Shown here piece after piece: positions 1 through 31,419 of a stretch of 64,000 nucleotides of DNA (positions are counted from its first letter, which is position 1; the number at the start of each line of letters is the position of its first letter). Origin of the DNA: Scolanthus callimorphus (taxonomy: Eukaryota > Cnidaria > Anthozoa > Actiniaria > Edwardsiidae); NCBI GenBank assembly GCA_033964015.1, contig JAWWUD010000108.1:62001-126000 (forward strand), in the 5' to 3' direction. A model generated the notes under the pieces. The model searched no databases and was not told the DNA's origin. It saw nothing but the letters and a program-made list of their open reading frames with translations. A program made the translations under genes and the position numbers.

Positions 1-3000
1 TTGGGTCACGTGACCCAGTTAGTGGAAGTGGCCTATTGGGATGTAACGCTTATTATTCTTATTTACTGCTTTTTTGTTTTTTTACCTGTTCATAGAGAGT
101 CTGGACGCTGTCTCGATCTTGCGTTAGTGTTTTGACGTTGTTCTGAATCTGCAAAGGAAACGTGCTGTAAAAATACAATGTTGAATGCTGTAGCGTCCAC
201 GTGAAGGCATTGGGTTTCCAAGGAAACAAGAGAGTGACAGAACCCTTAACCATTTTATTTGTTTACCTCCGTCAGATGCTTCTCGAACTTTTCCACCATG
301 GCCTGCAGTTCGTCTCTTTCCCGCCTCAGGCGATTGACTTCACTAGCGCTAGAGTCCTACAAGGTGCAAAAACAATGGTTACTAGAGAGAACATCAAATA
401 ACGAAATGTTATAACAACACTACGCCACCATACATGATGGTGTTGAAAGCATGCATTGGGCAGTTAGAAAAGGCGCAACTCCTCTATCAAGGAACTTTAA
501 TGAGTTTTCAAGAATTGCTGGACCTCTGTGGCAATTCCAGGGCTGCTGCCTGATCGCTGGAAAATTTGAAGAAACCCCGAAGAAATTCCTAGTTAACACA
601 ATGTGGATCTTCCAGGGTTGAAAAAAAAGACCCCTTGTGGAAATTCCAGGTTCACTGAACAAAGACTTCTGTGGGAATCTCAGGGCCATAAACAAAGCTC
701 TCTGTGAAATTCCAGGTTCCTTGATAGGGGGATGGGGGGGGGGGTAACAAAAATTAAATGGACAATCCCATTTGGTGAAGTCCCCCACCAAAAACCGGAC
801 ACATTCAATTACAATTGTATCGGTGAGAACGCTGCTACAAAAAGAAATCACGGAATTAATTTGTGGCAGGCATTGTCGCTAAATGGCTTCCATGAAAAAA
901 GAAAAGCCGGTCTTGAGGTTTTTTCAATCCAGTTCTCAATTACAAAGCTACAAAATAATAATCAATTTGAGAAATTGTTGGAGCTCTATACGATATGTGG
1001 CGCTTACCCTATCTCTGGTGGGAGGTGACCTTATTGTACTCTTATTCCGTAGGAGCTCGCACTCCCGTTTGTAGAAATCTCTCTCCTCTTCCATTAGCTG
1101 TAACATGCTTTCTAGATGGGCTTGAGACTAAAACGCAAGATCAACATTTGTTCAACATTTGTGAATCAGATTTAATAATAATAATAATAATATATTTTTA
1201 TAGCGCCATTTCTTTAAGAATCCAATGGCGCTTCCACCCATTTACAAAGATTTGACTTAATTCTTGGTGTTCACCTCCGGAGACATTTGATGTTGAGCTA
1301 GTTATTTCGAACAAAAAAACAATATTTTGATAGAGAACTATATCCTCAATAGTTTTGCCAAGTTTTAACTGGGTATCTTATATTGCACTGAATACATTGA
1401 ATGTAAATTTTAAATAGAAACTGAATTTGTGGCCCGAGAAGTTACGAGAATTCTATCTAAAGACTAACCTTCCCAGCTTTGCCCTTCAGTTTGCCTTTCT
1501 TGGCGGATGGCGGTGAAGACGCCTGTAGCCTCTTTCTCATCATATCTTGTAGCGAGTCGCATTCACTCTTATAGTAATCCCTCTCTTTCTCTAAAGTCTT
1601 GATGAGTTTGTCTACTCGAGACGGAGACTAAAACAAAGAAAAACCATCGGACGGGTTATTTTTTCACCCGGCTCAATAACCCCTCGTTATTATTCTTGCA
1701 ACGTCTCATAAAATAGAAACACGAGTTTCAGTTTGTCTAACGAAAGGGCGACTAAAACAAATAATAAAACCATGGTTCGTTACGAAAAAATATAGGCCGG
1801 ACTGTAAAACAGAATTAATTTCTATCGAAATGCTTACAAAGAAAATTCAAATGTAGACGTTTTTTTGTTGAAAATGCATATGAAAGCAACGGTTTCTGAA
1901 CGATGAAAACTTTTCACGAAGTGAATTCGGTGATCGGCAACGAATTGGGGCGGGCCAACTCGGGCTTAATCGGGGCATAGACCGATTCGTCTAATTTTTT
2001 ATTTGTCTGATTGGAAAACATTTTGAACCAATGAAACATCTCTCTGAAAGTAGTCAAATTGCCATGTTTGGGGTTTATAGCCTGTTTAGGAGCGAAGTTA
2101 TGAGCCCGCAATTTTTAACAGGCGTTTATATGGCTAAGATTAAACCGAACAGTCATACAAACCTCTGTAAAATTTCGAGATTTCATTTACCCTGTAAATT
2201 TTCTTCTGAGGAAGATACGAACTTCAAATGTTTCATGTTGACTAGTTTTAAAGGTTTCTTCCATCAGTTCAAAAAGCTTTCCAATCAGACAAGTAAATCA
2301 ACTACCTCAAATTACGTCTGTTGTATCATAACAGATTTTTTTAGTGTCAGGCCGATTTTTTTTTCGGGAAAATCAAACGCGTCGCGACTCAAAGTAAAGT
2401 CGACCCGTCAAGCAGGTGTAAATCAGCCAAAACGCTGATAAAACAGCTCTTCCCCTAGAACCACTGGTCTCCCTGTGGTCGCTTGGGATTTGTTTATGCG
2501 ATCGCTGGCTCAAGTAATTTGATTCCTCGCTTCATTAGGCATACCGCGTCCTGTTTGGGCAAACACGAACCATCGCGGCGAATGTGAAGGAATTCAGTTA
2601 GATTCATAGCAATTTAGAACATTTCAAGGTAGGTTCTAAGAATATTAGGTGTTTCACAAAGATTTCGTTAAAGTTTTGAGGAATGGTTAAAACAATGTCC
2701 AAAAACAACGACATTTTGGCTTCGAATTAATTTGAAATGAACATTCAACATCAAACAACTGTTGAATCGAAACCGGCATTACTAACTGTTCGGTTTAATC
2801 TTACTTAGACAAATTGAAATTCGCTTAGAGATTAAGATTAATTACAGTCAACAGAGAACGGTGTAGCGAAAATATTCTGCTGAGAAGAAACCCAATTTGT
2901 TGGGAAGAAACGCGCGTGTTCAAAACACGTGAACAGGAAACCGCTTTGGGATATTTTGCCAAGCCAAAGGAATGTTGATAAATTGGAATTCGGGTGTCTA

Positions 3001-6000
3001 GAAACCGAAGACCAAAGACCGAAGACCAAAGACCCAAAAGGGATGACCCAAAAGCGATGACCCAAAAGCGATGACCCAAAAGCGATGACCCAAAAACGAT
3101 GACCCCTAAAATAATTAACTGGCTTACCATGTACCAATACTGCACTCTATTCATTGAGTGTACAAATCACGTTGTAGCTTGGGAACTAGTAGTTTCCACA
3201 GGGCACCCGGAAATGACGGAAAAATAACATCAAAGTTCTCTCTCCAGGGGAGATATCTCGACAGGGCTTCGGATCTAGACTTGGCTGCGACATTTTGTTT
3301 GGCCTGAACTCGCGTTCTGATTCGTTACCTGCCATTACGCGAGCAAGTGCAAAACGGGTCATACAGGTTTTGATCACGCAAGGAAATTTCCTGTTTATAC
3401 GTGATTGTATTGTCATTACCGTCATAAAGATCTTCTTATGCTTTAAAGTGAGGAAATGCTACACCAGGACGAGCCGCGCAATGTAAAGAATCAAACGTTC
3501 CTCTTCACTATTGATTACATCCTTGTAACATTACTTCTGTACAATTTCCTAAACCAGGATTACTAGTAGTTTTAGACGTTTTGGCGGTTTTGGCGTGCCT
3601 GTCAATCAAACTATTTTTCTCGCTTTTTCTAGACAACTGGCCTAGCTTACGGTACCCTGGGGACCAAAGGAACTCGAACCTCGGCCTCTGGTTTCCAGGG
3701 TAAGCTTATGGTCGGCTAAGACTCAAATTAGACCCGAGAGTTTGATTGACGGAAGCCATAACGCCATTGTAAAACGCGAGAGTTCGCAGAATACTCAAAA
3801 CAGCTGTAACGTCACTCAAGTTCTGACTAGGTGTAGTGGTTTGAGAGACGGGACCTCTGTCAACCGAAAGACGTGCACTGATACCTCGGCTCGGTGACCA
3901 AGCTGAAGCACTTTCTTGTTTCGTGGTTTCTAACCCCATCCTCATATTGTGAGGATTAATACTCCCTCTTTAACACTCTACTTACCAATGTGAGAATAAA
4001 ACATACACTTGCGCTTGTTTTTTAGAGGAGACTTTATTGAAATACATTATCACATAGCACCTTCATGAAGGGGTATATCCCAAATACAATATCTCATATT
4101 AACGTTTTTTCGTTTGGGAGAAACTTTCTTACAACGGTTATAACAACGTAACAAAACGTAACAAAAAACCTAAGCTACAGTAGGCTTTAAATATCTGATC
4201 AATGAGTTCAATTCCTTAAAGCTATAATCATATAGAAGTATTAAGTTTGCTAATGCCCAGCTTTACTGAAACATCAGCGGCGTAGCCAAGAAATTCTGAA
4301 GGGGGCGGGGCCGGATAGTTAAAACATGGGACGAAAATATTCAAATTTCCTCCAGCAAATACAGTAAATGTATGGGAAAATCTCCCGAGAAAGGGGCGGC
4401 CCCGGACCCCCTGGCTACGCCCCTGAACATAAAACATAAACTGAAACTCGTAGAAGAAACCGTATCCTCAAAGGGATGACAACAGTTGTTTGTGTGAATC
4501 CTTCAATCTTTGCTGGACTTCTGCAGTGGTTTCTAAATAATTGGAATCGAAATATGGAAATCTCGATCTGATGCACTTACTGTGTACGCAGTAGAACCTT
4601 GTTGTGTATCTACAGGATGGTACCTTGTGACTACTGTTGTTTGGGTCAGGGTATAACCACTTCTCCTCGTGTGATAGTGCAATATCAAATGGTATGACTG
4701 TTGTGCGCCGGGGAAATTCCTTCCCACACTGCTTACAAGCTATGGCTTTTGGTTCGTCAGACAGGAAGATAACTTTAAGGGGCCTATTGTTGTGGTGGAT
4801 TTCGCTGAACGGATTTCCTGCCGCATCTAAACGCCTCGGAGGTCGCCAGTGATTCTTGTTGGATGCCCCTTTCTTTCCGGCGGCACTTTTGGCCGGAACC
4901 ACCAATCCAGATTTATTTGCCTTGTGCGGAGCCGAAGATCTCACCACATAATCTGCGTGTTGGGATAAAATATCAGCCAGTAGCGCGACGCAAAGACTGT
5001 GCTTGCACAGGTGTTGGTATTTGTAACAAGGACAATTGCACACTACATGGTCTCGATAAACAGCACACTCGAACATTCCTCCTTTGCAAGAGGACGAAGC
5101 CACGAGATATTTAACGGGAGATTTTGCCAAACTCGGCTTTCTCTGAACTGTTTTGGGATCATTGAGAAGTTGTTCTGCTCCGGTAACTATAGTCCTAATC
5201 AGTCCATCTGAGAGAGAAGTCTGACTGAGAACGCTTACCACATCTTTCGGTATCTCTTTGAATTCTGAGCTGTTTGTTGGATCTTTATCGGTAATTTTAT
5301 TAATGGTCTTCCCTTGAGCCAGTTCCCCCATGCTTAACTGGTTAAACATCTTAATATAATGCGATCTCTCTGCCTCCGTCCACTCAAACCACTCATCTGG
5401 CGCAATCTCCAGGTAACTTGCATCGTACGAAAGCTCGTAGTCATCGCTCATGCCACAGACAGCTTTGCCTAGTTCCAACTGTTGCTGTCTGTCGACTTCC
5501 TCCCAAATATCCCTTACGAACTCCATTTACTCAAATTGTCTTTACTTTTGCCCCTTTTGGTGATCGCTTCCTTTTGCCTTGTCAATTTATTATTCACGCT
5601 CTCGGCCATATTGGTGTAACACCGCAAAGGATTCCCATTGGCGTCATTGGGTATGCCAGCCTTTTTCCTCGCCGTTGCGATCATCGAGCGCTTCATCATA
5701 CCCCTGTTTTGTTTAAGTAGGACCAGAAAACTGGTTCCTTACCAGTCAGTCGCCTTTCTTCCTTGTTGATATCTTCTTTAATTGCACGAAGGCGTGCCTT
5801 TAAATCTTTTTTGTCCTTTGCCTCCAAAAGAGAATCGCTATCATTTCCAAATACTTTATCAAGGAAATACTTTTGTTCTTGCTGTTTTGCTATCCCTGCG
5901 CTTTTCAGTTTCGATTTATTGTTCTGACGAAAATGATTGAAACATCTAAGACCAGTGGCCTTCACCGCGGTTTCCCCTACAGATTCATGAAGAGGTGTTT

Positions 6001-9000
6001 CCCCATCTGTAATAAACCCTCGCGCTTCTTTGCCAGCTTGGGACAGCTATTAGATAAAGCAGACACAATTTTTTTATAAGCTTGCTTTGTCTTACTGTAA
6101 TGTATTGCTGTAGGTCCGACAAAGACTGGAGGTTGTCCGGTTCTTTTGGACCTCAACATCAGATGGTGGTAAGAAAAGGGCGTGACCTCGAACTTCCCAA
6201 AGTTAAATGTAGGGTCCACGCAAAAGGGGCGGCTTGGATCAGAACAGCAAAAGCGTTCGATGTCTTTGGTCATGTGTGGTTTACCAAGTACCCACAAATC
6301 TTCTGGGACGTCATGGTGCTCAAGCAGCAACGGTTCGTCTTGGTTTTTGGCATACAAAAGTAATTCATCAACAGGATCACTGATTGATTTCATGCCTTTT
6401 TTCATGTCGTACACTTGCTGCTTCGATCTGGGAAGCTGCCCCGGTTGCTGAGCCCCTAATATCCCTCCAGAGGCATTTGAGACGTTAGCAAAAGCTACAG
6501 AAGAGGAGCTTTCCTTGACAGCTGCTTTCACAGCTTCTAGAGTGCTTTTCTGGTTTGGATAAAAGGGCCGTTTGCCATACTTTCTATTTCCATGGGGTTT
6601 TACTTTGAAGTCCATCTCAACGTCGCTATGGTCATCCAAATAATATTGTAATAAGCATGTTTCATGAAGTATTTTTTCGTTAGCATCAAATAAATAAAAG
6701 ATGGCACGACCCAGTCCGAATGAGTTCTTTCTTGAATTTATATTAATGTACATTTGTGTGCTACTGGTTAGAGGGACTTTCTTCTTTTCGACAATCTCGA
6801 TGTCGTCATCTAAAATATCTACAGTCCAATTGCCTGTGCGTAGCCCTGTTTCGTACACACCGTTCATGTCACTCTTGATGTCGTCACGGTGTCGCAATTT
6901 ACTGACATCGACCAGAAAGGCCATGTTACTTCTGACTTTCAGAGGAGTCTTACTGCACTTTTGTGTATCGCTGTTGTCTAACAAAATGCGCGTTGCCTCT
7001 CGCACGGTGTAACGTGTCGTCTTCCCCCTTTGTAGTATTGGGAGGTCAGGGTCACTGTTGTACCTAGCATCGGTAACTAAATCTCCATTTTCCTACGAAA
7101 AAAATATTTCATGATTAAATAGTCATACACTAAGACTGTAACCCTGCATGGGAAAACGTATCAACCAAAGCGTTAGGCGGTCAGAGCGTTAGGTTAGGTA
7201 TCAAAGTCGTGAAATTGTTAGGCCCAGCTAAGACAGATAGTTACTGAATTCGCCAAACGGTTTAATAAAAATTCTAATATTCCAAATTTCAAAAAGTGAT
7301 ATTCAGGACCTTTGATTTCAAAGCCGAGTCAGGAAAAACATTTTCGTTTGTAATATAAACTTGCGAAGGTGAAGCTCTTTCATCGCTAAAATAATTCCCG
7401 TACAACTTTGGAGAAAACCGCGCAACTTCTTTTTGCAACATCTAAAGGTCATGTCAAACTAAGCATTTTTCTTGCAACTCGCAACGCATCAATGACAAAT
7501 TAGTTGCCACGGGATGTCACACAATCGCAACGTTTTTTTTTTGCAACAAGCAATACGTCCGCGACAAAATGATTAAGTGCAGCGACTTATCCAAGTAAAA
7601 ACATGAAAATGGTGTGCGCTGGTTTGCTGTGATCTGGAAATTTACACCGATTCACACAACGTTGCAGGATTAAACGCACTAAAACCACACATCATAAATT
7701 GTTTAGGTGGTCCCGCACGTTCACTTCGAATGTTTTACCTGCTTTCCTGCTAGCTCTGCCCTCGTTGTCCTTGCCTCGGATAACTCATCGCTGTCATCAC
7801 TAGAACTGCCGTCACAATCACTTACATCGCTCTGCCCTTCCGTTGCTATTACCGGGAACTGCTTTCGGGACTGGAGGATTCAAAGTTGAATGAAATCATA
7901 TGACAATTGGAAAAATCTCCACTTTTAATATTGGTATGGCAACTTTTACAATTCTTATTCAAACGTTTCCCTATCCATTTTTAGCAACGCGTAAAACGAG
8001 CTAGTACGTTGTTTTTGTGTACGGGGGAAAGAGGGGGGGGGGGGGGTAGTAGGTTGTGCACGGGGGGGGGGGGGGAGGTAAGAAATCATGTACCACCAAA
8101 GTGTGTTTGTGTGTGTGCATGAAAATTTGTCAAAATGTGCGGGCTGGGGGAGTCGAGGCGCTTCCGCGGTCTGTGTTGGGGAGTCGACCCACAGAGACCA
8201 CAAAAATAGAATCATTTGGAGCGACACATGACACTGTCCATCATCATGAAACAGCGGAATCCGCGACCGTTCACAATTTTCCCGCACCTTTATTTGCGCA
8301 TCGCTTCCGGCTTGCTCTGCCATCATTGACCTCAATTCTGGTAGCTCGTCGCTATAACTTCCGTCACCATCACTTACACTCGGCTGCTCCATTTCTAGTA
8401 CGGGAAATTCCTTTCGAGGCTGGAGAATTCAAAATTGAATAGGGTTTCCATATAGTTTTATCTGCGAGCGTTTGTGGGCGCGCATATCCAAGGTAGTTTG
8501 CATTTTATGCATTCGCTTGCCGCAAGGTTACTGATGTATATAGATTTAGGCAAAAGTAGTGCTGCCAGTCAGTTTTATGCCATTTTTAAAGCCTGACGCC
8601 ATCGTTGACGCAGAAATGAATTCTTCATGCATGGATGACGTCACATCACGTGACCACTTTATTTCGCTCCTTTGTTGACCTGAAGAATTGTCAGAGATTC
8701 CCCCTTTATGACGTTTTTTTCTAATTGATCCGTCTTTAAGACGGATCTCCTTTATCTCCTGAAGGAAAAGTCGCGTGTCCTTACGTTATCAATGACGTCA
8801 TCAACTAGCCATCATGTCAGTGACGTTTTAAAATGAACTCCATAGGATACTGTAAACGTTATACTCGCGTGCAAACAATGGTAACAGCCGCAAACAAGGC
8901 ACTATGGCGGCAATCTATTGAAAATTAAATAGCCCATGGACTAACCCATTTATTGAACAGTTACCACCCGTGACGCCAGTGGAAAGGTTTGTAAAAGGAC

Positions 9001-12000
9001 ACTTGGTGGGGGTCCGCCTACAGGAATTACCTTCTTTCTAGCTTGTTTGAGCGCCCTTTTTAACTTGATTGGATCGATTTTAGTCGCTTCATCATCTGAA
9101 CTGTCGATAGATATACACGGCGCCTTTTTCGCCCTTTTGTAGCCCATTTCGTTAGAAGAACGCTGGAACAGTGCAATTATTAAATAAATTTTTTTTTTTG
9201 GTTTTCAAACATTTAAATATTATCGAATTATCGAATGTATTTACCTTTTCATTTGAAGGTTTGCCCTTCTCAGGGAAGGTGACCTCTTCATCCGAACTCA
9301 GGACAACAACAGTAGGTGTCTGAAATTCAAAATCGAATCTAAGCTATACACAATTTAATATCCGGTTATTATTACTGTGACAGACCGGATTTCGTGAAAT
9401 AAAGCCGTGAATAAAAATCGCATCAGTGAAGTGATGCGATATCACTTCACGGCAAGAATAAAATGCAACTTTTCGTTATCTTTTTGCTATTTTATCTGAC
9501 TCAGGGTATATAATAAACAAATCTCGAAGATTCGCTCGTTCGCACTATGACACGAAAACGTGGAATAAAAAACGATATCAAGCTCTTACAATGTAATAAT
9601 CTCTATTTATTTTCGATAGAATTCCACTATCCTATTGATGCGAAAATGACACTAACCTTTCTGGGAATCTCTTTCACAATGGAAATGTCCAGGGGGTCCA
9701 AAATTTGTCCCTTCCATAAGGTGGCTCCCGGACAGTATTCTTCCAGATCATCCCATAACTCGAATTGCGCAGTTGATGATTTTCTCTGTAACAGAAACGT
9801 CAGACAAGTAGTCAGCCATTTTCTTCGAGAAATAAACCCGGTATGTTCGTATTCTCGGTCTGCATAAATGCATCGATTACCTTTCTTTTGGCCAAGTTTT
9901 CTGGCGAAGAGCGTCCTGATGTTTTTGCCGAGTTTTCTGGCGATGAGCGTCCTGACGTTTTTGCCGAGTTTTCTGGCGATGAGCGTCCTGACGTTTTTGC
10001 CGAGTTTTCTGGCGATGAGCGTCCTGACGTTTTTGCCGAGTTTTCTGGCGATGAGCGTGCTGACGTTTTTGCCGAGTTTTCTGGCGATGAGCGTCCTGAC
10101 GTTTTTGCAGAGTTTTCTGGCGATGAGCGTCCTGACGTTTTTGCCGAGTTTCCTGGCGATGAGCGTCCTGATGTTTTTGTCATTCTAAATCAGAAAAATA
10201 AAACTTCCTTTTAAGCGCTGAACAAATTCCAAATTTTTTACACATTAACGTCCGATGACATAATATAATCAGTGACGTCAGGTCACGTAACAATGACATT
10301 GTTAGATCAAGGATAACCACAGAGTACTCAAGTGTGACGTCATTTGAAAAATCTTGAATTTCCTATTTTAGCCCACGAATAATGAAAGACAAAGTGGAAA
10401 GAGAATCTGATGCAAAAAATGAGGCAAATCGGTTGAAACGCGACCGAGATATGGCCAGCTGAATACATAATGTTCTTTAACAAGTCACTGTATTTTAGAC
10501 TGCGTTCAAAACTTTATGAACGCAACCAAAATACAGTGATTTCTTAAAGAAAATTATGTATTCAGGAGGCCATATCTCGGTCTCATTGCAACCGATTCGC
10601 CTCATTTTTGGTGTGTAGCATTCATTTATTATGCCCTTTCAAAATCCAAGGACAAACATTGCTAAATCGAAAATTTGTTTTTTGTGACGTCATCACTTGA
10701 GTACTCTATTGTCGGAACAAACAGCCAATTTATTAACTATTAATTTAGGTTTTATCGCCGTTTTTTTTTCAGGTTGAAAGCAAATAAACTAAAAGAAGAA
10801 CTTATGTGCAAAATTCTCCACTGTCTACAATTTTTCCACATGGAATAGCAAGAAACATCAGCACGCAAACACGTTTCAGAGATAGACTTATTTTGGAACT
10901 AAAAAGAACGTGCATTTTGTTGTCTGTGTTTTCGAGTTGCTTTCATTCCCGGTGATGAAAAAAAAAAACTTTTTCCAGGGATGTAACCGAAGCCCCCAAA
11001 TATATGGGCTATTTCAAAAGGAGCTTGTGCCGCCCCTCCCTTAGCCTCCCCCTCCCCCTTTGGAAAAATTCTGGCTACGCCGGTGTTTCCAAACGTAAAG
11101 GAATACACAAAAGGCACTTACCCTTTGCAGGACTGAGATTTCTCTCATAGACAAAAGTTTGCTAAAGATTTTAATAATATAGATAGATATAATTAATTGT
11201 ATTCGGTCTGATATAGAGCTGCGAATGGAATCGAGCGCCAAACTTAAAATGAAATTAATTTCCGGGTATGTGCAATAATTATCAATAATTTGAGCAGTAA
11301 TTTAGATCTTAACCTCCTTCCACTCCTGTAGTCAGACCTAGCAAAATATGAATCTAACCCCCTCTCCCCTCCCCACACCCTACACTTTGATTTGCCTCCA
11401 GTCCCCCATTAATCTAAGTAGACCCCCCTTTAAGATATGAAGATAATTAATTCACAGTCCCTGTCCCCCCCCATATTTTTGGGGCGGGGGTGCTCGTCGG
11501 GAACTTTCGTTCTTACCCCTAAAAGGTACCAAACATGGCGTCGCTTAGCTGATCTTGACCCCTAAAAGGTACCAAACATGGCGTCGCTCAGTTGATTTTC
11601 CCTCGTAATTTTCTCGCGTATTTTTACGAGGGAAAATACGTCTGAAATTCAGGCTACCAACAACTGTGATTTGCTAAAACGGACCTCTAACAGGTACCTA
11701 TCGAGGAAAAATTACACGTTTTCGAATTTTACCCCTAAAAGGTACCAGAGGCCTGATTTTAAACCCTAAAAGGTACGACGAGCACCCACGCCCCAAAAAT
11801 ATGAGAGTTCCCCCCCCCTCCCCCGGGTCCCTGTCTCCTATGCCGTTTTTTATATACTATTTTGTATATAGTGTAAATAAACCGTAATTTCGGCGCCCGC
11901 GTAGCTGAGCCCCATAGCTACATGCAGGAACAAGGAAACAAAACAAAATTGTATATGCATTCGACCTGTTGTTCTGTTATGGACTTCAGGTTTGTCTGGT

Positions 12001-15000
12001 GTTCGTTCGTCCGAATTCACACAGGCAACCCATGAAGAGTTTTATAGCAGATTGGAAAGGGATGACCCTCAGACAACCAAACTTTGGCGAAATTATCTTA
12101 ATGGGGGTGCAACTGCGTAGTCCCGTGGTCAAAGGAGAAAATGTTTATTATTGGGATGAAAGCTAAAACAACCAAACTTGGGTGAAATTATCTGAGTGGC
12201 AAGGGGGTTGCAAGTGCTAAGTCGCGTGATATGGTGACAGGCTTTGTACAATGGCAACCTTTTTATGTCATTAACACAGAACAATATGTTATTATCGGAG
12301 GCATGTTTATGTTGCCACAGGTTTTGCATTGACGGGCGCAAAAAGGGGGCGCAAAAAGACCGACAAAATGATTTTCAAAGTATTTCAGGGACGACAGACA
12401 AATGAACGGGGATATTTTGCTAAATTAGCGTTAAATAATGTTCATAGCCATCCTTAAAAGAGATAATATTTCGTGCATCTGGTCAGGAAACAAAGCCTGG
12501 TTTTGTACAGTAACAGTGGGTGTCATCAAAGCATTTTACCTGTTTGTTTCGCTTTTCGGCACGAGGGCGTCGAAGTGGTTGTCTCTCACTCGAAGTACTT
12601 TGCAAACAGATGGACTTGATGAGGATGTAGACACACAATCGTCCAGCTGAGTTTCCTTACCCGGAGAGAAGACAGTCTCAACTATGCCCTCGTCGCGTAC
12701 ATCTACCACTACTACAGTTGTGCTCAGCACACTGGCGATCACTTTGAGCATGATGTCGACAACCTCGAGGTTATACGAGCGCTCGCCAACATGCTTCTCA
12801 AACTCGGCCATCAGATCATCTCCCAGGTAAAACTGTTGAAAATACGTCAGATTGTGTCGAAGCCCACTCCGGCACAAACTAAAAATGTCGCTCGGGGACA
12901 CCACGGTAGAGACTTGTCCTGCCAAGCTCTTTGATAGTGCTCTTGCCAGGCAGTGGCCATCTCCTTGAACTCTTATAATTTCAAACTTCTCTTTGTCGAG
13001 ATAATTAGGAACTGAAAGCTTGATGCTAAAACAGACAGCAAACGATTGACATTTAATATCTGGCGAAAAATGACGTGATTCCATCTTGAATAAGAAGGAA
13101 AATAAGTATAACAGTTCGATACTTACTAAGTGCTCGTAGCTGCCATATTGAACCACCACGTGCGGAAAGAGGGATTTCGTAATCCACGACTCTAAGGCTA
13201 ACAAAATTTCGCGCGCTCAGGGGTCCTCTTAGGGGCAAAAATGAACTGGAGGGGAAGCAATGCAATACAATACAATGTAATAGCGACGTTGTATACTAGG
13301 GCAAGATTGGAATGTGACCCCGCAGGCCGCAGAGTTTAGCTGGCAATGTCCCTCTGCTGAAAAAATACTGTGCTGATGTTCTTCAAGCACAAGGGATACT
13401 CCCTGTGGCCGGCAGCGGATCTGAACAGCCAAGCAGGGCGGGCTGTGAACGGCTCGTGATCTTCGGCTCGCATTAATTGCTTTTCTAAAAGAGCGCTTAA
13501 TCCGTGCTCAATTGGAGTGGTGTTGACATGCAAAGAGTATGTTAATAAGATCGCCGGTTGGGTGGTGAAATCCGATCTCGTTCAACTTTAACAACAAAGC
13601 CGAAGGAACAAAGATCGGGGGGAAGTATATAGTAGTTACCGTTAGAATTTTGAAGTATTTGCAGGACCGCTTACTCCAATAAAGGATTCAATAAAGGACC
13701 TATCAATCAGTAGATATGTAAGAAAGAATAAAAACTTGAATGGTTGATTAATGCACCAGTCATTTGACATTACGGCCCCCCGACCCCCGGGACAGAGCGG
13801 GCCGGAATTTAACATTCACTAAGTGTTAAATGTTACTATTTTTCCGGGGCCGGTTCCTGAAAGGTTGGATAAAGTTATCCACGGATAAAAGTTATCTGTT
13901 GTATAGGTTTTGTTCAGGATTTATCCGTTGGATAAGCGTTTATCCACTGATAACTCTTAACTGGCCTTCTAGGAACCGGCCCCCGGTCACCAGGGACATG
14001 GTCGCTGTTAAAGTTCCCGGTCTCCGGGGGACACTTTTGCAACATGGCGAAACGCGCCCTTACTTTGAATAACGCATTTCATCATCTAGCCTCAGAGAAA
14101 AGATAAACGTTTTATTTTCTGCGTGTAGTAAAAAAGTCTGTTGGTTTTATTCTTTATGCGCTACAAATGACGAAATTATTATTATTCATGTGCGCGAAGC
14201 GCAGCCCAAATGACGAATTTCTCATGCAGCTTGTAACGTCGAACTGGATCTCGACTTGGCGGCGACATTTTGACTCGCGTTTTGATTCGTTACCTGCCAA
14301 GGTTCTACTGGAGAGAGAACTTTCATTTTTTTTCCTGTCATTTCCGGGTGCCCTGTGGAAACTACTAGTTCCCAAGCTACAACGTAAAACAATATGGCGG
14401 TGATTTGTACACTCAATGAATAGAGTGCAGTATTGGTATATGGTAAGCCAGTTAATTATTTTAGGGGTCGTCGCTTTTGGGTCATCGCTTTTGGGTCATC
14501 GCTTTTGGGTCATCGCTTTTGGGTCTTTGGTCTTCGGTCTTCGGTCTTTGGTCTTCGGTTTCTAGACACCCATTGGAATTCACAGAGGAGTTGTATAAAG
14601 TCGTGTTTTAAAAAACTTCTTAGACATCAGAACATTATATTTTGTAGCATAGAAAGCTGTTTACTAATGTTAGTAACTAAAATCATTTTGCTGAAGAATC
14701 GTCTAAACTACACAGTAAACTGTGAAAATTTGATTCTCTACTATTTTTCTGATATTAGAGCCCTGTTTTCTTCTTTCTCGAAACCTCACCTCCTTCGTTT
14801 TCAAGAATAGAATCAGAGAAAGTTAATTTTATAAGAGATTTATAATCAGAATTACGCCATCGAAAATGGCTTTTTTTTTCAAAGTTTTTGGTGTATTTAG
14901 AGTTCGATTCATTCATCTAAATTGACAAACGTTTTCATAAAAAGATGGAAATTATCAAAATTATATATTTCCCCAAAAAAATTCAAAATTGTTAAAGAAA

Positions 15001-18000
15001 CTTTTAAAAAGTTTTGAAGAATGGATTTTAAATTAAAAGCGGTCGTTCTCTTTGTAGAAAAAAAATACTGTAACTCAATGGCTGTCTCAAGCTAGTTGTT
15101 GCTAGTTTTTTTTTAGTACAAAAAATGTTGTTGTTGTTGTTGTTGTTGCAGCAGTTAAATTAATGTCTCTAATTCTAGAGTATGAGTGCAGAATTGACTT
15201 GGAACGAGTACTACTGCAAGTCAGGACAACTTTTGTACTACCATAATCCTGTGACGGATGAATACAAGTGGGCAAATGGCAAGAAAATGGTAACGCAGCA
15301 AACAAACAAACAAACAACAGTTTTCAGATACAGCCCCTAGTTGATATAGAAACCCACTAGCTGAATAACACCTTTGTACTTCCCCTAAAGCCATCTTGTA
15401 ATAACTTTTAACAGTTTCTTAAACTTTCAAAAGAAAAAAAAACAATTCTATGGGGTAAAAGGGAATCTTGTAACCATATTATCTAGTCTGCATACCATAG
15501 CTGGCCATGGAAAATTGAATTAATGATTCTAGCTATAAGGAATCCATCCCACAAAACTCTAAAATACATGTAGTTGTTTGTAAATAAGTTGTTTGTAAAA
15601 ACCTACCAAAAACACAAAGCTATGAGCTACACAAGCCACTCTTTTTCTTTCTCTAATTCCTGGTACAATTAAATGTTGTTGAATATTTGAGGTGGTTTAT
15701 CTACAAATAAATGTAATGGTCCAAATAACATATCTAAGAAACACTTACTTAGTATGTTTATTATGCTCAAAGGAAAACAAGAAAGCCAGGAAACCCAAAA
15801 AATCTAAAGTGAAGGTGGAGTCAGGGCAAAATGATAATAAAACAGCTGCCAAGAAAAGTCCAGCAAAAGTCAAGTTAGAACCATTAGAGGAAGATGTCAA
15901 CAACAATATGTCAGCATCTATGGAAAGTCCAGGAATGGTAAAGTTGGAGCCAGTGGATGTTGAGGGAATGGAAGAATTTCCTGGCAAAAATACAGAAGCA
16001 AACATGGAGGAAAATGTTGAAGAAAATCTGGCAGATACACTTGACAGCAAAGAAAATGTTAAAGTTAAAGTTAAAAAGACCTCCTCAGCTGCAAGTAGGA
16101 GATTTATATGTGAATACTGCCAGAGAGCATTTAACCGCCTGGAACATCTAAAGATTCACGAACGGATACATACTGGCGAAAAACCCTATGTTTGTAAAGT
16201 TTGTGATAGCAGCTTTGCACAGAGTGCAAACTTTGCTCGACACATGAGGTTACACACGGGAGAGCGGCCTTACAAGTGCAAGTACTGCCCTAAGACCTTC
16301 TATGATGTCACATGTGTCATTCGGCATCAACACACTCACACTGGTGCTAAACCTTACGTGTGTAAGATCTGTGATAAAGGGTTTACTAATCCAGGAAATC
16401 TAAATGTGCATATGAGAACACACACAGGAGCAAGGCCATACACTTGTGATATCTGTAACAAAAGTTTTGGGTCAACATCGACTCTAAACACACACAAATT
16501 TGTTCACAAGGACACCAAACCCTACCCTTGTAAAATCTGTAATTCTAGTTTTGCTCTTAAAAGTGGCCTGGCTCAGCACATGAAATGGCATTCCGGGGAC
16601 CGGCCGTTCAAGTGTGACTTGTGTGATAAAGGGTTTGTTGATAATTCATCCCTTAAAAGGCATGCCAGGAGCCACACAGGATTAAGACCTCATGAGTGTA
16701 AAATGTGTGGAAAGGCTTACACATCAGCAAGTCATTTAACTCGCCACATGAAAGTGCACCTGGGAGAGAAACCATTTGAGTGTACTGATTGTGACAAAAA
16801 GTTCTCTGAGAGGTCATATCTTCGGGCGCACCAAAAGACTCACACAGGAGAGAAGCCTCATGTGTGTCAGATTTGCAACAAGGCATTTGCACACAAGTCC
16901 TCTTTTCAAAGTCATGTGAAAAATCATTCAAGTGATAAGCCTTGTAAATGTCCCACATGTGGGATGGGTTTTGTTAACAAAGCACGAGTACGTCAACATG
17001 TCAAAGTAGTGCATGCCGAGTCTAAACCTTATGTATGTAAAGTATGTAATCGAGCCTTTGTGCTCCCTCATTATTTATCTCGACATATGGAAACTCATGA
17101 GAACCCAAAGTTTCTTCAATGTGATGAATGTGGAAAGCGGTTTCTCCAGCCTGCAGTGCTTGAGCGACATAAACGCCAGCACAATGGGGAAGAGCCTTAT
17201 GAATGTGAAATATGTAAAAAGGCATTTGCTGATCCAAGAAGCAAAGCTAACTGTATGAAGAAACACAAGATGGAGGATGACGACGAAGAAGAGGAGGAGG
17301 AGGAGGAAGAAGAAGAGGTGGAGGAGTGGGAAGAAGATGACAGTGATGAAGAGGAAGAAGTTGAAGATATGGAAGATGAAGATATTGGAATGAGTTCTAC
17401 AGAGAGACATGCTGATGTAAGAGGATACTCAAGTATTAAGGAAGAAAAAGAAGAAGAAAGTTCTGATGAAATAATAGAGTGAGGATGCCTGGAGGGTGGG
17501 GTGAGGTGGGGGGGGGGTGGACTCCCATATTTTTTTAACGGAGGACAGGTGCTCATTGAGAAAAACAAATTTGACCCCTAAAAGATACCAAAATGGGTGT
17601 GGCTAAGCTTCAGAATACCCCCTGCTGAAAGATACCATTAAGTAGCGCTCCATCTAAGAACTATAGCGAAAACAATAGGGCTGCAGAAACAGTGGTCGTC
17701 TAGTGATGTTCACACTTGATTTTCTTCTTGAACCAACGAAAGACCTATTCGGAAAGAATTCAGCACTGCAAACGAAGTATTTCGCTACAAAAACAGTGAA
17801 AAAACAAATTTCAACCAATCAGAAGGCCAGGATTTGTTGACCAAGCCAATTAGTTTTTTTTAGAAATTTGACAATTTAAAAATTTACACAAAGCATAACT
17901 CAAATTCCAGATAGCCATTCACGCTTAAAAATGTCAATTCATCTGATCCCAACGCCTGATACACAAAACTGACAGATGTTTTACACCAATTCAAGGCACT

Positions 18001-21000
18001 TTTGAAAAGGCAAAGTTGCTTGATTGGGCACCATCAAAGATTGCAGATCCCAAAATTACCTGGCTTTTATCTTTTTAACCCCTAAAAGATACAACAAGCA
18101 CCCCACCCAACCAATATGGGATTCCCCCAGCCCCGCCCCCATGTGAGGATGCTACAGGCATAGTGTGCATACTGTAGCTGTATATTTTGAATGCAGCATC
18201 AGATGGCTGTTTTTAAAGAAATTAATATAATTATTTTGGTACCAAAAGAAATGAAATGGTGTTCACCTTTAAATTCAGTGCATTATGGAAGTAGTGTGTA
18301 ATGGCCCCAATGAATGTACATGTTGTAAGACTGAATGCTTAGTGTAAAAAGTGTTGAAAACTGTTTTGTGCTTTTTGCTTTTTTTTTGTGCTGAGACGTT
18401 TGCATCTCTGCTTTCTATGTTATTGTTGTTGCACTTTATGTCTTTGACTAAATGCTCTAGCACTGATTTGTACTGTTTGCTTTGTTTTGTGTTTGTGTTG
18501 TCCTACTTTTTGCATTTCTCCTGTTGTTTTATGCACTTTATGTTCTTTGTTGCACTTTGTCTTTGACAAATGCTCTAGTGAAAAGTTTACCTTCTCATTT
18601 TACCTACCTTATCTCGGGCTTTCTTTCCCTTCACAGACTTCGTTAATTTCAGCCTTTCCATTTCCATCACCAGTTCTCGTTCTGTAAAAAGTAGGAAGCC
18701 AAGGTTTCATTTACCTTATTGCTACTAATTTTCATGTTGCTTTAATTTTGCAATTTTCGCGATTAAACAAAAAATTAAAGTTACGCAAAAAAATGTCTTT
18801 GACTATGCCTTTGGTACTATGCGGTTTCTATAGTTTGTTTTTGTTTTGAGTTGATGATTTTCAGCAATAAGAAGTGTAAAATAATAAAAACATTCTGGAA
18901 AAAATGTTTTTTTTTATTTTCGCGGAAATTAATTTACTAAGAAAATAATTTTGCACGAAAATAAAGACCCGCAAAATATTCCAACCTTTCTTTCGTGAAG
19001 TTAAGTGCCCACAAAAATAATTAGTACCAATAAGGTAGTTCTGCTTTTATGAACCGCATGTCAACTAAACAGAAATGATATAAAGACAAAGTGACAAAAG
19101 AACAATATTTATGCATAATGTGTTTTGTACTCCGTTACATGTAGTGTTACTGTTTTTCTCTTTCTGAATTCAAGATCCATGATGTATAAAGCAGTAATTC
19201 AATGAGTGGTCAAATAAAGCATCATTTAATAATATGGGTTGAACAAAGTTCTATATTATTTGTGATATTTAATAACAACAAAAATTGTGTACAGTAATTC
19301 CTTAGAAGGTACCATTATTAATTTAGAGTAGTTTGATTTTGACTCATGAACAATTTACTGGGTTCTAAATGGCTCAAACTGAACAAGAATTCTTGACTTC
19401 TTAAAGCCCAACCAACAATGCAATGATACATGAGTCAGTGAACACAATATTCTGAAAATTGTAGTCAAGCTATAACAAGCACATTACTGGGACGTATAGC
19501 CAGCATTTGGGAAAGGGGGTAACTACGGCAAAAAAAAAAAGACCGACCATTTTTGTCATGTGTAATATTTTTCACCTGGGGGTGGTCACATACACCTTGA
19601 CCCCCTTTAGCTACGCCCTTGCATTTATTCTAATTTAGAAACATACCATTGATTGTGAGCTGAGCATTTTTCTCTGATAGTCTTCTTCTTTCCCTGTCTG
19701 ACTTGTCCAGCAGTTCAGCTGCACTGCGAGTGTCTTGATTTGCTTTGTCCACTAATGCAGCAAGACCTTCATTGTCTTCAAGAAGCTTCTTTCTTTCCTG
19801 ATCAAACAAATTGTTATTGCAAGGTTTAGTAATTATCCCCCCCCTCCCCTAAAAGATGCTGCCATATAGTCTTTCATCTAATAGGCTGTTATCACACAAA
19901 ATTGATTAATAATATTTAATAGTTATCAGAAAATGACATCCAGTATTCAATTCTACACATCCGTATAAGTAAAATTGCAAAGTTTGGTGAAGATTGCTGG
20001 AAAACTGACTGACATATGAATTTTCAAAACTTTGTATTCTGTTTTTTGCAAGAAATGTATGGGAAAATGCATCGAAAACGAGGGTGGACGGGCTTCAATG
20101 CCCATCCAGCCTCGACTTGACGTATTTTCCCATACATTTCTTTGTAAGTTTCGAAAATTCATATCTCAGCCAGTTTTCAAGTAATTCTTTTGAAACTGTG
20201 CAATTTTACTAATACGGATGTGTAGAATTGAAAACTGGATTTCATTTTCTGATAACTATTAAATATTATTAATCAATTATTTTACATGATAACGGCCTAT
20301 TGGGATGTAATCACTGGACACTATTAATTACTACTATTTCACACAAAAAATTACTTCTTCAAAACATTTGCTGTTTCTAAACTACTAGAAGGCAAGTAAT
20401 ACAGACACAAGTTTTTGGACCAGTTCACGAGTTTTTCAACTTTGAATTGAGGCTCACACTGTATTTATAATGCATATTTATAATGAAAATTTGAAACTGA
20501 AATATTCAGTTCCTATACTGTCTCACATACCTTTCGTAGTTCGAGTACTTCCTGGTTGGAATCTTCTGTGCGCAGGTGAAGGTTTTTAATATCAGCCTAA
20601 GAAAATTGTAATGAGATATGAAGATATCCAGCCCTCATTTCTAAGGATTTCACAAAACAGTGGTGAACGTTGAAAAAAAAAACGTTTATGATTCTGCCTA
20701 CTTAGTGATGGAAAAGCATGCCAGCCCATGGACAAAGACATGAGCCTGAACGGGCAGAATCGGAGACGTTTTTTTTTTCAGCATGCACCACGGTTCTGGG
20801 AAATCCGTAGTAATAATAATAATAATAACTTTATTTCATGAGGGTAGCACATTACAGTCAAGACTGATAAACTTGTGGCCCTCTCTAAAATATAAGTATA
20901 TATATTGCTGCTGCTAATGTGACATTAGTAGTACAGCAAAGCCATTTACACAGCACAATTATACCTAAGCTGTGGTACCTGTACCACTTTTTATCCAAGC

Positions 21001-24000
21001 TCTGCTAAAAAATCCCTGTCGTGTAAATGAGCTGTCAGCTACAGTTGATTTGTTTCATTCTACAAGGTGTACCAAAACTTCATCATGCCCAGGGCTCGAA
21101 ATTAACAGATATTAAATGTTGTAATTTTGCGACTTGCTTGAAGAGTTTTAGTCGCAAAAAGAAAACTCCAAGTAGTAAAATTAAAGGCAAACCTTAAGAT
21201 GCGACTAACTGATATTTTTTAGTCGCAAAGTGAACAATTCCGATACGGTCGCAGTTTCGAGCCCTGATGTCAATACTGCTTTTGGTGATCTTTTGAATTA
21301 GTACCTAATATTTTTCTTTTAAAGAAACTCACATTAGCAGCAGCGAGATCAGCCCTGACTCTATTGATGTCTCTGTCTTTGTCATCTTCTAACTTTTTGG
21401 ACATTCTGCCGATGCCTTTCATCTCCATCAGAAGTTCAGCATTCTTCTCTTCCAAGTCCGCAGATCTCTGAGCCACCATTGCATGCTTGTCCAATGCTTC
21501 TGACAGCCTCTTCTCCAAATCTCGGTTTGCCTGCTGCAGGTAGTCAACCTGAAGATACACAAAGGTAAAGAAGTCGGATCAACAACAACAAAAAGCACTT
21601 ATTGTTATTGGATCCTACCATAACAGCTAGAATCTCAGTCTTTTACGTGGAATTCCTACTGAAATTCCATAGATGGAATTTCAGATGGAATTTCAAATCT
21701 GGAATTCCATCTGACCCAATGAAATTGAATGAATTGAAAAATGCATTTTTGGATTGAATAATGAAATCAATAATGGAATAGTGAATTGATTATTCAACTC
21801 TAGGGGGACGCTTGATGTCTTTTGACTGTAAATGAAATCTCTGAATACTATGTATGGCCTATTTCCCATTTAAATGCATAAGATTAGGAATGAGGTTGAA
21901 ATTAGGAATGACAACGGGTTTGATTAGAATACAGTACAGATTTCATAAAAGGAAGCCATTTTTAGTTTAAGCTAATATACATGCTATTTCATAAGCATAC
22001 CTGTACATTAAGATGAGCAACCACTCTCTCAGAGCTGTCAGACCTGACATCCTTTGCAATGGCATCTATTGGGCGACCACCTTCAAGCTGCTTGTTCAAT
22101 CGCTCAATCTCCTTTTCCCGTGATTCCACCTAAACACCATAATAAAGATAGTAGAAGGATTCTTAGTGTATGGAGATTAAGTGAAAGAAATAATATTTTC
22201 TGCAAAAAATATTTCCACTCCATGTTTTGCCTGCGTAGCAAGCATTTCTGTGGAGTTTCAGGGTAGCAGAAAAGCCTGAAGGTATATTGAGAGATTTTCA
22301 GTGATTGGCCACATGACATTTTATTGGGTGAGGGCAAAAATGGAGCCCGAAAATTTGCTTAACATTTTACAGACCTCTGAAACCCATGGGAAAGCTCGCT
22401 ATGCAGGCTATAGTCACTCCACGTTGTAGTAAAGCTGAATTTTCTTTCCTTGAATTGAAAGTAAGGATTTTAAATATTGCGGAAAATAAAAACAATGCCC
22501 ATTTCATAATCTGGTGATCAACAACTGTGTGGTTTCACATGAAACGGTTTCTGTGTAGGGTGTTCCATATTATAATGGAAGTTGCTTCTTATTCATAATG
22601 TTGAATTTTCCTTTCACTTTTGTCTTTTGTGGTCAAGTTACTTTATGTGGTCAATTTCTTAGTCTGTGATCAAGACAAAGGATCAAAAGAGTGAGATAAT
22701 TCTGCATTGCAGTGGCCATTGTTTAGTGTTAAGGGCTATAAGATCTACCTTTTGGTTATTTTTTAGGTTTAGTCCTGCGCTAGCTATACTGCCTACTGGT
22801 ATATTATAGAGATTATTAAATTTTATTTTTATTTTCCTCATTTTTTCAAGGAGGTGGAGGGTCCTGATACTCAGACTAATATGGAGACTACATTCAAACA
22901 CTTTACAGACCCTTCTTGTGGTAATTGGTATACAGCACAAATAATAGTCATACTCATTGACTAATAAAAACCTGGTTTATCCCTACTCACATAATCCTCA
23001 CTTTTCCCTTTATTTTAATTCCAACATACATGTATGTGGAACATTTGAGGTACATGTAGAAGATACTTCCAATCGTCAGTTATATGTAAAATACAGAGTG
23101 AAACTACGGTTTAGTTGTGTTGCTAATACATTTTACAATCTGCTGAAAGCTTGACACCTTGGATTTGTATGCAACTGAAAACTGAAACTGAATTTGAACA
23201 TTTAAGGATTTCAATAGAGGTCTGAGGCATTCAGAAATATTCTACATGTTAATCAGCAGAATGTGTTATAGTTATCAAGATTGGAAAATAATTTGTTATT
23301 TTCACAAAACACCTTTCATTTTCACATAATATTCAAAACCAACTGCTGCCAAACAAAGACTAGACTCAATAATTATTCAAATTTAAATTTGTATAAAAAT
23401 TATCAGTTTGAATAACACGAATTTCAATAGAGTATTCCATGTTAAACAAGCAAAACCTGCAAAGAGACAAAATTAACAAGATGGTTTGGGGAAATACAAA
23501 TATTGATCAAAGATCATTTCTAATTGAGACACAACAATTTTTTGCCACAATAAAGCATCATTTCTAGTCAAAGCATGGACATTTTGATCACTAAAATTTA
23601 CTACTGTGTTGGCATCATTTGCAAAGGATTCATATTGTTTCACTTCCATTCAGTCTGGAAATCCAACACAACAATCACTAAAACACACAATACAATTTAC
23701 ATTTGGTTTATCTTTTCCATTTTTTGCTGTAGATGCTTGCGAAATTTTATCCATTTTAGATTAGGACTTGTAATTTCTAAAAAAAAATCCCACTTCAAAA
23801 TGGGACAGAATTCTGTAAAACTTCCATTATTGAACCATCCATTCATTCGCAATCCACACAGTGAAAAACCTCTGAAAATGATTTTTCTAAAGGTGGGAAT
23901 TTTTCATAAAAGCCTTATAAATATAGACAAGCCAGAAATGTTTACACTGCTCGATGGTCTGTTAGCTATACCCAATCCCATTAGCACAAGATCAACTTTG

Positions 24001-25183: not shown

Positions 25184-26213
25184 TATATAAACCCTTGATC
25201 ACAATGAGTTTGAGTTTCATTGACAGAATTCGTAGAAATCGCCAAATAAACGAGCCATTTCGGGTTCAAAGACCGTTAGTAGATTTCGCGGCACTAAGGA
25301 CGCTTGATTGACTAGAAGGCGCATGCGCAGCTTTCAAATTTGCCTCTGTTTACGGTGAAAGTTTGGAGATTTGATGCGTTGATCACCTAATCAAGTATTT
25401 TGTTTATTTTGAAGCCTAAAAGTGTTCAATCTGACACCTAAAATGTTTCAAGTTGAAAAGTGTATACGGTTCTTGACTAACTGAAATGTTTTAACAATAC
25501 TATGAGTATCTTTGCGCTTGAGCCTTTTTTTTGCCTTGTGAGAGCCCGGATAGCCAAATTTGGGGTCGAAAAAGCAACTTCCAATTGCTGGTGACCTTTT
25601 TTTTTGTTGGTTTGTGTTTCTGTGGGAAAGGAGGCAGATTTCTGAATTTAAAAAAAATGGCCGCTGGCATACCATAGTAAGCCCAACCGGTGCTAGTTAG
25701 TTACCCCTTCTTACCGGTAGTTCCGTTTCTTCAGTAGTGAGCCCAAAGATCAAACATATTTTGCTGCCTACAAATAGCGATACAGTCAAGAAATAATTCC
25801 AGTGCTGGTCTAGATGTAAACACGCGTCTAGGGTGGTCAGAAATAAACGAATTCTGAAAAACTTTGGTCTCAGGTTGTTTTCGCCCTAACTAAACAGTAG
25901 TGTGTCCTCGGCGCGCGCGCGCGGAGGATGAGCCTCGATTTTGTGCTTCCAATAATGCTCGAACTGTCCTTGACACTGTCACGAATAGCACGCATACCCA
26001 ACATATCCCATGTCAAAACTGCCAAACTGTGCAAGTTTCATGTTTCTTTCGACCCCCGGGCATGCATAAAGCCTTTCTTCCGATCTCCAAGTGATAAACA
26101 CGTTCCACACCCCGCAGCGTCCAAAGTTGAACTTGATTGAATGCTCAGCGCGCTTGTGCACCTTCACAAGTAAGGAGAACAAGAAAAGAAGAAAATTCTA
26201 TTCCTTTTTGACA
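25184..26213. other. Divergent intergenic region between CEP135 and caveolin
   Basis: About 1 kb separates the two start codons, which point away from each other, so promoters of both genes must lie here. A GC-alternating run gcgcgcgcgcgcg sits at about 25911. No TATA box was assigned. Confidence 0.5.
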
Positions 26214-30171: not shown

Positions 30172-31087
30172 CGGAAGCCAGGGTAAGTGCGCTAACTACT
30201 TTTGCATTTGATTGTAGTACATAAAAATAAATCTAGGCCAATTTCTTATCATTTTAGTATTAAATTTCAATACGCGTTATTTACTTGATAATTTCTCTGT
30301 ATTACAATATAAGAAAATATTATATATAACAATGGTAGAACGGAACTGAAACACAGGATACCTAGATAAACTGATTAAAAAACGTCCGTATCGTGAAAAA
30401 CCCCGCAGTTTGTTATCGCGGCGGTCATCTTGGACGCGCGGATGGAATGGCCTGAAGCGCGCATGATGATGGCTGCCGCGACTACGAACTCCGGGGTTTT
30501 TCGGGATAAAAAAACGACGCCTGTGAGCAGGCTAAAAAGTCCTTTTTCTTAAACGATTACACATTATTATTGAATCTGACGAACCCCGATGTTGCGAACT
30601 AATCAAGTCTATAACAACGAGGACCCAGTTCTCAATACTTGTGCGCTTTCCAAATTAAATGTTCTATGTTCAAGGTGTTATTGGTACTTTCTTCAGAGGC
30701 TATAATCATGTAAAATTGGCGTACGGCTAGATCCAACAAATGAACAATAACGATAACCGGTCCTGAAAGGAGCTTGGTGCTGGTGCGCACTCACACAATG
30801 ACACAGGTTCTAAACTTTCTCGTACCCGGAGCCTCGCGAGCTCCACGCGTCATCTCGTGGGAGACGCTCTGGTATAAACGTTGAAGCATGATGCACGGGA
30901 TTTTAAACAGCGCCGCTGAGACAATAAGCTTACTGCGCATGCCCCAAAGTTCAAAATCAGCCAATCAGTAAAGGCTATTCAGTGGCTATTACCAGAGCAT
31001 CCCACGACAAGCCGGAGAGCTCTGCGCGTGCGCATGACAATGGTTTCTCAGAGCCATACACCGAGGACGTTTATTGGCGTATGACCT

Positions 31088-31419
31088 GCGCGCTACGCAA
31101 CAACCGCCAATGAAGGCTCTTTTAGAGCTCCGTGGGTGAGCGGCAATCAGTTACGTCACTGAATGACGGCCGCGCGGTCACAAGGAGTCTGAAGGAGTCT
31201 GCGCGCCACGCAACAACCGCCAATGAAGGCTCTTTTAGAGCTCCGTGGGTGAGCGGCAATCAGTTACGTCACTGAATGACGGCCGCGCGGTCACAAGGAG
31301 TCTGAAGGAGTCTGCGCGCCACGCAACAACCGCCAATGAAGGCTCTTTTAGAGCTCCGTGGGTGAGCGGCAATCAGTTACGTCACTGAATGACGGCCGCG
31401 CGGTCACAAGGAGTCTGAA
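31088..31419. repeat. 113-bp tandem repeat, three copies
   Basis: Unit starts at 31088, 31201 and 31314 with nearly identical sequence. It contains gttacgtcactgaatgac, which resembles a CRE/ATF site, so each unit repeats that motif. Confidence 0.85.

Follow-up and report, generated by a model that had tools for sequence, protein, structure and literature searches.

Does an intron of the CEP135 gene of Scolanthus callimorphus harbor a complete Mutator-like element (MULE), and has that element moved recently? The locus lies in a 64,000-bp stretch of DNA, hereafter the window (C108:62001-126000, where C108 is contig JAWWUD010000108.1), from an assembly of 597 Mb in 302 contigs. An initial annotation had described a complete MULE with a perfect target-site duplication inside this intron; the element enclosed exactly one spliced transposase gene and appeared recently mobile. 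Our analysis indicates that the element is a real, complete, and recently inserted MULE. With a probability that we put at roughly 0.8, it is a cut-and-paste DNA transposon that entered the CEP135 intron at only one of the locus's two copies, which is most likely one haplotype of the sequenced animal. Underlying this reading, the following were observed directly: the element ends with their duplication, an unoccupied site, further copies of the family, splice phases that are compatible with one another, and the retention of catalytic positions. Three features go beyond the initial annotation, namely an OTU domain in the gene model, a broken transposase reading frame, and repeats within an intron of the element.

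Element ends and target-site duplication

The element spans positions 2992-14571 (11,580 bp), beginning with GGGTGTCTAG at its left end and finishing with CTAGACACCC at its right end. Both ends adjoin a perfect 10-bp duplication, ATTGGAATTC, such that the left junction reads ATTGGAATTC followed by GGGTGTCTAGAAACC (2982/2992) and the right junction reads GGTTTCTAGACACCC followed by ATTGGAATTC (14571/14581). This 10-mer occurs twice in the window, in both cases at an element junction. In a shuffle control, it occurred 0.38 times on average and at least twice in 7 of 100 shuffles; since shuffles sometimes reach this count, it is the placement exactly at the ends that matters. With the ends fixed, the chance of a perfect 10-bp flanking repeat at this composition is ∼1.3e-6.

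The features by which we recognized a MULE were long terminal inverted repeats (TIRs), a target-site duplication (TSD) of 8-11 bp, and transposase homology. The two inverted arms, 256 bp on the left and 264 bp on the right, align over 248 bases, of which 240 are identical and 8 mismatched, with a further 24 gap positions; the number of 14-bp units differs between them. The TSD is 10 bp, and homology to MULE transposases was established through relatives, as described below. The boundaries originally proposed were confirmed. Immediately inside the arms lies a subterminal direct repeat of 54-64 bp, and part of the 11.58-kb length is repeat sequence within the putative first intron of the transposase gene (Table 1).

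The host intron and an empty site in the same assembly

For the exon at 24489-25154 (-), a PDB search returned a chain named Centrosomal protein of 135 kDa (E value 1e-42). A tblastn search with an approximate human CEP135 sequence as query placed minus-strand exons on both sides of the element: 25177-24492, 22141-21998, 21554-21309, and a weak match at 18685-18629 (E 0.73) to the right, and 1627-1487 (2e-7), 344-264, and 148-65 to the left. Splice signals were found at those exons that were inspected. Because exons are present on both sides, the element lies within one CEP135 intron, as initially annotated, and its transposase gene has the same orientation as CEP135. The intron would be ∼17 kb long, provided that the weak exon at 18685-18629 is right. 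Two further observations concern the host gene. The segments 1627-1487 and 1127-966 (-) match one part of the approximate human CEP135 query, which suggests an exon duplication and perhaps alternative exons. In addition, a 599-codon open frame with 13 C2H2 zinc fingers (15683-17482, +) lies antisense within the intron shared with the MULE.

The left flank (2442-2991) matches two places in the assembly, the window itself and C10:29160835-29161385, at 99% identity (the counts of places in this and the following exon search are lower bounds). The locus on C10 (L055) runs uninterrupted as GATAAATTGGAATTCACAGAGGAG, with one ATTGGAATTC and the element absent. A global alignment of ∼1 kb per side between L055 and the window flanks has 1906 of 1924 aligned bases in agreement and 94 internal gap positions, and BLAST gave 98.7% identity over 926 columns to the left of the site. 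The correspondence extends to the host gene. A search with the CEP135 exon block 24400-25300 likewise gave two matches, on C108 and on C10, at 99%; identity near this exon is 98.3% over 22906-25423; and C10 is collinear with the window, with 9,264 bp between site and CEP135 exon on C10 and 9,818 bp in the window. A collinear second copy of the locus in which the site is empty means that the element moved recently, and the mobility that had been argued from the ends and duplication is thereby upheld within the window's own assembly.

Judged from these two sequences, the element inserted after the C108 and C10 copies had split, unless C10 lost it by precise excision. We consider it highly unlikely that the C10 site is such a scar rather than a never-filled state, as insertion followed by excision is less parsimonious than a single insertion. 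No sequence-specific point speaks against a scar, and the mosquito MULE Muta1 is described as excising precisely in ∼90% of yeast revertants when it is flanked by a duplication (PMC5225508). Regardless, an excision scar would equally mean recent mobility. Most simply, C108 would represent the second haplotype, retained in the assembly as its own contig, and we infer that the insertion is probably heterozygous. A separate difference was noted at L057:2526-3372, opposite window positions 25416-25423, where ∼850 bp on C10 are absent from the window and 8 bp are shared at both sides; this is likely a second insertion difference between the two copies.

Related copies in the genome

Many related ends mark a family to which the window element belongs. 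When the initial 22 bases of the element were searched with up to 2 mismatches allowed, they matched 55 places in the assembly (28 forward and 27 reverse, two being the window's own), and a backward-read control gave 0. Among 20 stretches chosen around part of these matches, nine contained facing end pairs. Eight of the nine pairs share the same end base and carry their own perfect duplications, of 9 bp (n = 3) or 10 bp (n = 5) and all of different sequence. The ninth, which duplicates another pair (99.94% identity, nearly the same flank), shows 2 mismatches in its target-site duplication. The other genome copies that the initial annotation had proposed to look for are thus present. The complete copies are 1.8-6.5 kb long, the closest independent short copies (L017 and L018) are 96.6% identical, and blastn of the element against the 20 stretches did not find transposase exons in the complete short copies. 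For 12 single ends, partner ends sought by duplication and end motif were not found. A random-boundary control (2/1800) was not used, as its draws did not exclude the true boundary. As a separate observation, two 6.5-kb elements ∼67 kb apart on C4 (L021 and L022) are 99.94% identical with nearly the same flank, which indicates a recent segmental duplication.

Relatives in viral contigs were sought with the exact 15-base end pattern. None of the seven stretches recovered matched the element end past 16 bases; they were taken as chance matches and rejected as viral relatives. Of the pattern matches, 84 viral and 20 in genome contigs, profile scans confirmed none as relatives.

For this large animal MULE, a single assembly thus supplies the complete ends and their duplication, further copies of the family, and the empty site. 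For size, a survey of arthropod MULEs gives full lengths of 1.4-10.0 kb (PMC13359780). Since boundaries, target duplication, and recency were established without other individuals, the locus can act as a reference when members of the family, non-autonomous ones among them, are annotated.

Transposase homology and gene model

Among the 7999 candidates that were scored, namely those sharing the most words with the last exon of the transposase gene, 46 are relatives at E 0.001. The best is 63% identical, and named hosts include Holothuria, Apostichopus, and Paramuricea. When seven relatives were scanned with PF10551, one (P0034, 37% identical to the window transposase) passed the cut-off with 34.2 bits against 27.6, five scored below it, and P0001 had no match. 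The aligned motifs VDPTF, ITDGE, RCFNHF, and MAES are all present in the last exon, in three reading frames; we take the first catalytic aspartate to be that of VDPTF, the second that of ITDGE, and the glutamate that of MAES. The four trimmed frame pieces of the window keep 127 of the 129 columns that are invariant in 12 relatives chosen from the 46, which is comparable to the leave-one-out values of the 12 relatives themselves (89-100%). A PDB search with the transposase profile returned nothing at E 1, and a fold model of P0001 (12 sequences; mean predicted local distance difference test score (pLDDT) 58.2, predicted template modeling score 0.32) was judged too poor.

The last exon also contains the CxC...CxH pattern of a SWIM-like finger; the corresponding profile, PF04434, scored below the cut-off in six of the seven relatives and was not listed for the seventh. 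The FLYWCH finger N-terminal to the MULE domain that characterizes Phantom was not found, with no FLYWCH match in eight scanned open frames of the element (exons 9284-9319 and 7739-7870 not included) or in the seven relatives. Separately, a protein of 1321 residues (P0044) combines a protein-kinase domain, above the cut-off, with a MULE transposase and a SWIM-like finger, both below it.

Eight candidate exons fit in phase on the minus strand, in the order OTU protease, repeats, short exons, MULE DDE domain, and SWIM-like finger. The OTU exon joins the 36-bp repeat exon in phase and all later exons are in phase 0. The claim of exactly one spliced transposase gene therefore holds in outline and was incomplete in detail, as the model includes an OTU exon and the frame of the last exon changes three times. 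On the OTU exon, PF02338 scored 22.9 bits against a cut-off of 23.3 (22.1 bits for the longer open frame), and on P0047, a relative 35% identical to it, 26.6 bits. The GDGHC and HFDALVP motifs are identical in the two. A search with the OTU alone gave one relative at E 0.01 among 295 candidates, a PDB search gave nothing meaningful, and an OTU fold model with a mean pLDDT of 35.5 was judged unusable.

It is unlikely that the OTU exon is a separate gene or a captured host fragment within the element and not part of the transposase protein. Its splice phase fits the next exon, and OTU domains have been described elsewhere, for a Mutator element in PMC6446971 and for proteins of Ginger and Helitron elements in PMC2836005. 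A separate origin would nevertheless be in keeping with the sub-threshold PF02338 score, with the lack of long proteins containing the window OTU at E 0.001 among 1053 candidates, and with two sister copies on C2, around which the stretches contain part of the last exon only and no OTU match. Between OTU and transposase, a putative coding exon consists of a 36-bp minisatellite (9881-10184, -); minisatellites are listed beside some MULE transposases by Dupeyron et al. (PMC6446971).

Table 1. Features of the element and its host intron in the window
Feature	Position	Strand	Remarks
Left target-site duplication ATTGGAATTC	2982..2991	.	single copy in empty site L055:2042-2051
Right target-site duplication ATTGGAATTC	14572..14581	.	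single copy in empty site
Left terminal inverted repeat	2992..3247	+	14-bp tandem units ACCGAAGACCAAAG x2.2; GACCCAAAAGCGAT x5.4
Right terminal inverted repeat	14308..14571	-	same 14-bp units x4.4 and 7-bp array x5.4
Subterminal segment, direct repeat of 14246-14299	3271..3334	+	just inside left arm
Subterminal segment, direct repeat of 3271-3334	14246..14299	+	just inside right arm
Dispersed repeat with 28-bp inverted ends	11470..11818	.	putative first intron of transposase gene
Hairpin repeat	10415..10609	.	putative first intron; arms 97 and 96 nt, 84 identities, 12 mismatches
Putative OTU-like cysteine protease exon	12540..13084	-	GDGHC and HFDALVP motifs, open frame, ends in phase 2
Putative 36-bp tandem repeat exon	9881..10184	-	12-residue units, ∼8 copies; first base supplies the one missing from the preceding exon
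Putative exon	9657..9785	-	phase 0
Putative short exon, uncertain	9284..9319	-	weak donor
Putative exon	9031..9162	-	phase 0
Putative exon	8288..8419	-	phase 0
Putative exon	7739..7870	-	phase 0; length as 8288..8419, similar start
Last exon, MULE DDE transposase and C-terminal SWIM-like finger	4468..7092	-	frame changes near 6,030, 5,710, and 5,535
CEP135 intron containing the element	1630..18607	-	approximate ends; right-hand exon is a weak match

Observations that weigh against the reading

Several observations count against a complete MULE that recently entered one haplotype. Duplications were examined only in the 20 chosen stretches, and in 11 of these a partner end was not found within the stretch DNA. 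The splicing of the putative exons is predicted only from their compatible phases. Identity between the two copies of the locus falls to 95.9% over 1520 columns to the right of the site and to 93.7% over 25416-25937, gaps counted in both cases, and L055:1-1125 on C10 does not align to window positions 1-2074, such that the loci differ upstream of 2075. The last exon changes frame in the order 0, 2, 1, 0, with three breaks. Open frames of the window itself gave no MULE match at E 0.1 and reached no SWIM cut-off in a scan that did not include the 59-residue middle piece; PF10551 was not reached, and the domain is split over frames. Finally, in a search of the genome with P0001, in which 54 of 136 candidates were scored so that counts are lower bounds, all matches of at least 40% identity outside the window are fragments or contain stops.

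The differences between the copies would be in keeping with a recent segmental duplication of C108 and C10, one duplicate of which the element entered afterwards, and near-identical duplicates (99.94%) do exist elsewhere in the assembly. We regard this as improbable. The exon and flank searches each list two places, again as lower bounds, and these are collinear over ∼10 kb. Moreover, one copy lies on a contig of 30.3 Mb (C10) and the other on C108, whose number in the length-ordered list suggests a small contig (at least 421 kb), as expected of an unpurged haplotig.

Given three frame changes, the copy as assembled cannot make a full-length transposase. The P0001 search listed 58 genome matches, the best of them in the window, and because those of high identity elsewhere are broken, a source of active enzyme was not seen. 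Several distant matches (23-26%) have long open frames. Two of these (C8:14169399-14171567 and C11:20717000-20719168), 23% identical to P0001, have 891-codon open frames free of stops and may represent a second family that is active. When the broken region was used in a DNA search, it recovered itself, the two C2 copies (pieces 94-99% identical), and weaker fragments of 68-85% identity. Both C2 copies lack the same 280 bp spanning the first-break region and are in frame over the second and third breaks, so these two breaks are not common to the C2 sisters. Because the two share a flank, they are counted as one duplicated insertion and not as two transpositions.

It is quite possible, although we do not favor it, that the contig is poorly polished and that base errors account for one or more of the three breaks, the real copy being intact. 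The 127 of 129 invariant residues kept, the intact frame of both C2 sisters at two of the breaks, and the failure to see, among the candidates scored, an intact close relative able to mobilize the element would all fit this explanation. However, ∼7 kb of other coding sequence in the window, partly estimated by hand, has no such break (rough Poisson chance 0.5%), which argues against a uniform error rate, and real new indels are plausible given the many small indels between the locus copies (10 BLAST gap openings in 2.4 kb). The supplier of active transposase could thus be the window copy before its decay, a window copy broken only by contig base errors, or a source not seen here. Most likely, the window copy was intact until shortly before or after landing.

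Proposed mechanism

Based on established biology of the MULE superfamily, the DDE transposase would bind the long ends, whose arrays of 14-bp units may provide it with several sites to bind. It would then cut the element out and join it to a staggered 10-bp cut, which repair would turn into the 10-bp duplication. The OTU domain, which lies at the N-terminal side of the same predicted protein, probably deubiquitinates the transposase, or else host proteins of repair or chromatin, while transposition takes place. A stronger proposal is that the window element is the only near-complete autonomous member of its family in this genome, probably heterozygous and itself mobile within the coalescence time of the two haplotypes, with the OTU domain fused to the transposase and taking part in transposition, for instance through deubiquitination of the transposase or of the repair proteins that act at the break. 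We offer this tentatively and consider it rather unlikely as a whole. If true, it would describe an animal MULE with deubiquitination built into its transposition enzyme, testable where filled and empty alleles coexist. The OTU-transposase arrangement also bears on the idea that the ubiquitin pathway possibly participates in transposition (PMC2836005).

Comparison with known elements

The closest arrangement by description is MuDR-6_HM, a cnidarian MULE in group 14 of Dupeyron et al. 2019 (PMC6446971), where an 'Ovarian Tumour Gene' domain is given for it; HM denotes Hydra magnipapillata (PMC2836005). The combination of OTU and MULE is therefore known in outline. For MuDR-6_HM, the listing gives the TIR as 'None', does not indicate a TSD, and shows no zinc finger (PMC6446971), whereas the element described here has defined ends and a SWIM-like finger; the comparison is by description only. 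Some transposases of Ginger1 DNA transposons also have an OTU protease domain, which is given as C-terminal and accompanies a Gypsy-like integrase (PMC2836005), in contrast to the OTU N-terminal to a MULE transposase in our model. The cnidarian subgroup of the Ghost clade likewise consists of cnidarian MULEs, listed with a 177-bp TIR, and SWIM is listed for arthropod Ghost members (PMC6446971); that study recovered no complete Ghost element, and this comparison too is by description only.

In its ends, the element resembles Tm1, a Mutator/Foldback element of root-knot nematodes with composite TIRs that contain a variable number of ∼14-bp units, 9-bp TSDs, and deletion derivatives (PMC3169594). 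Tm1 differs in its unit sequence, its Phantom-like transposase, and the asymmetric 7-bp motifs of its ends (PMC3169594). Muta1 from Aedes aegypti is an animal MULE with a DDE transposase that is active in yeast (PMC5225508); its TSDs are given as 8-9 bp, whereas those of the window family are 9-10 bp. Among the titles listed in the open literature, none concerned the window element or any MULE that combines OTU and SWIM with defined ends; Repbase lay outside this search.

Other features of the window

The repeat at 11470-11818, with its 28-bp inverted ends, is dispersed in the genome (L032, L033, and L034), and part of it also occurs near window positions 18073-18140. Rfam and tRNA scans of the window gave no matches. 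At 31086-31419, a 113-bp tandem unit is present in three near-perfect copies.

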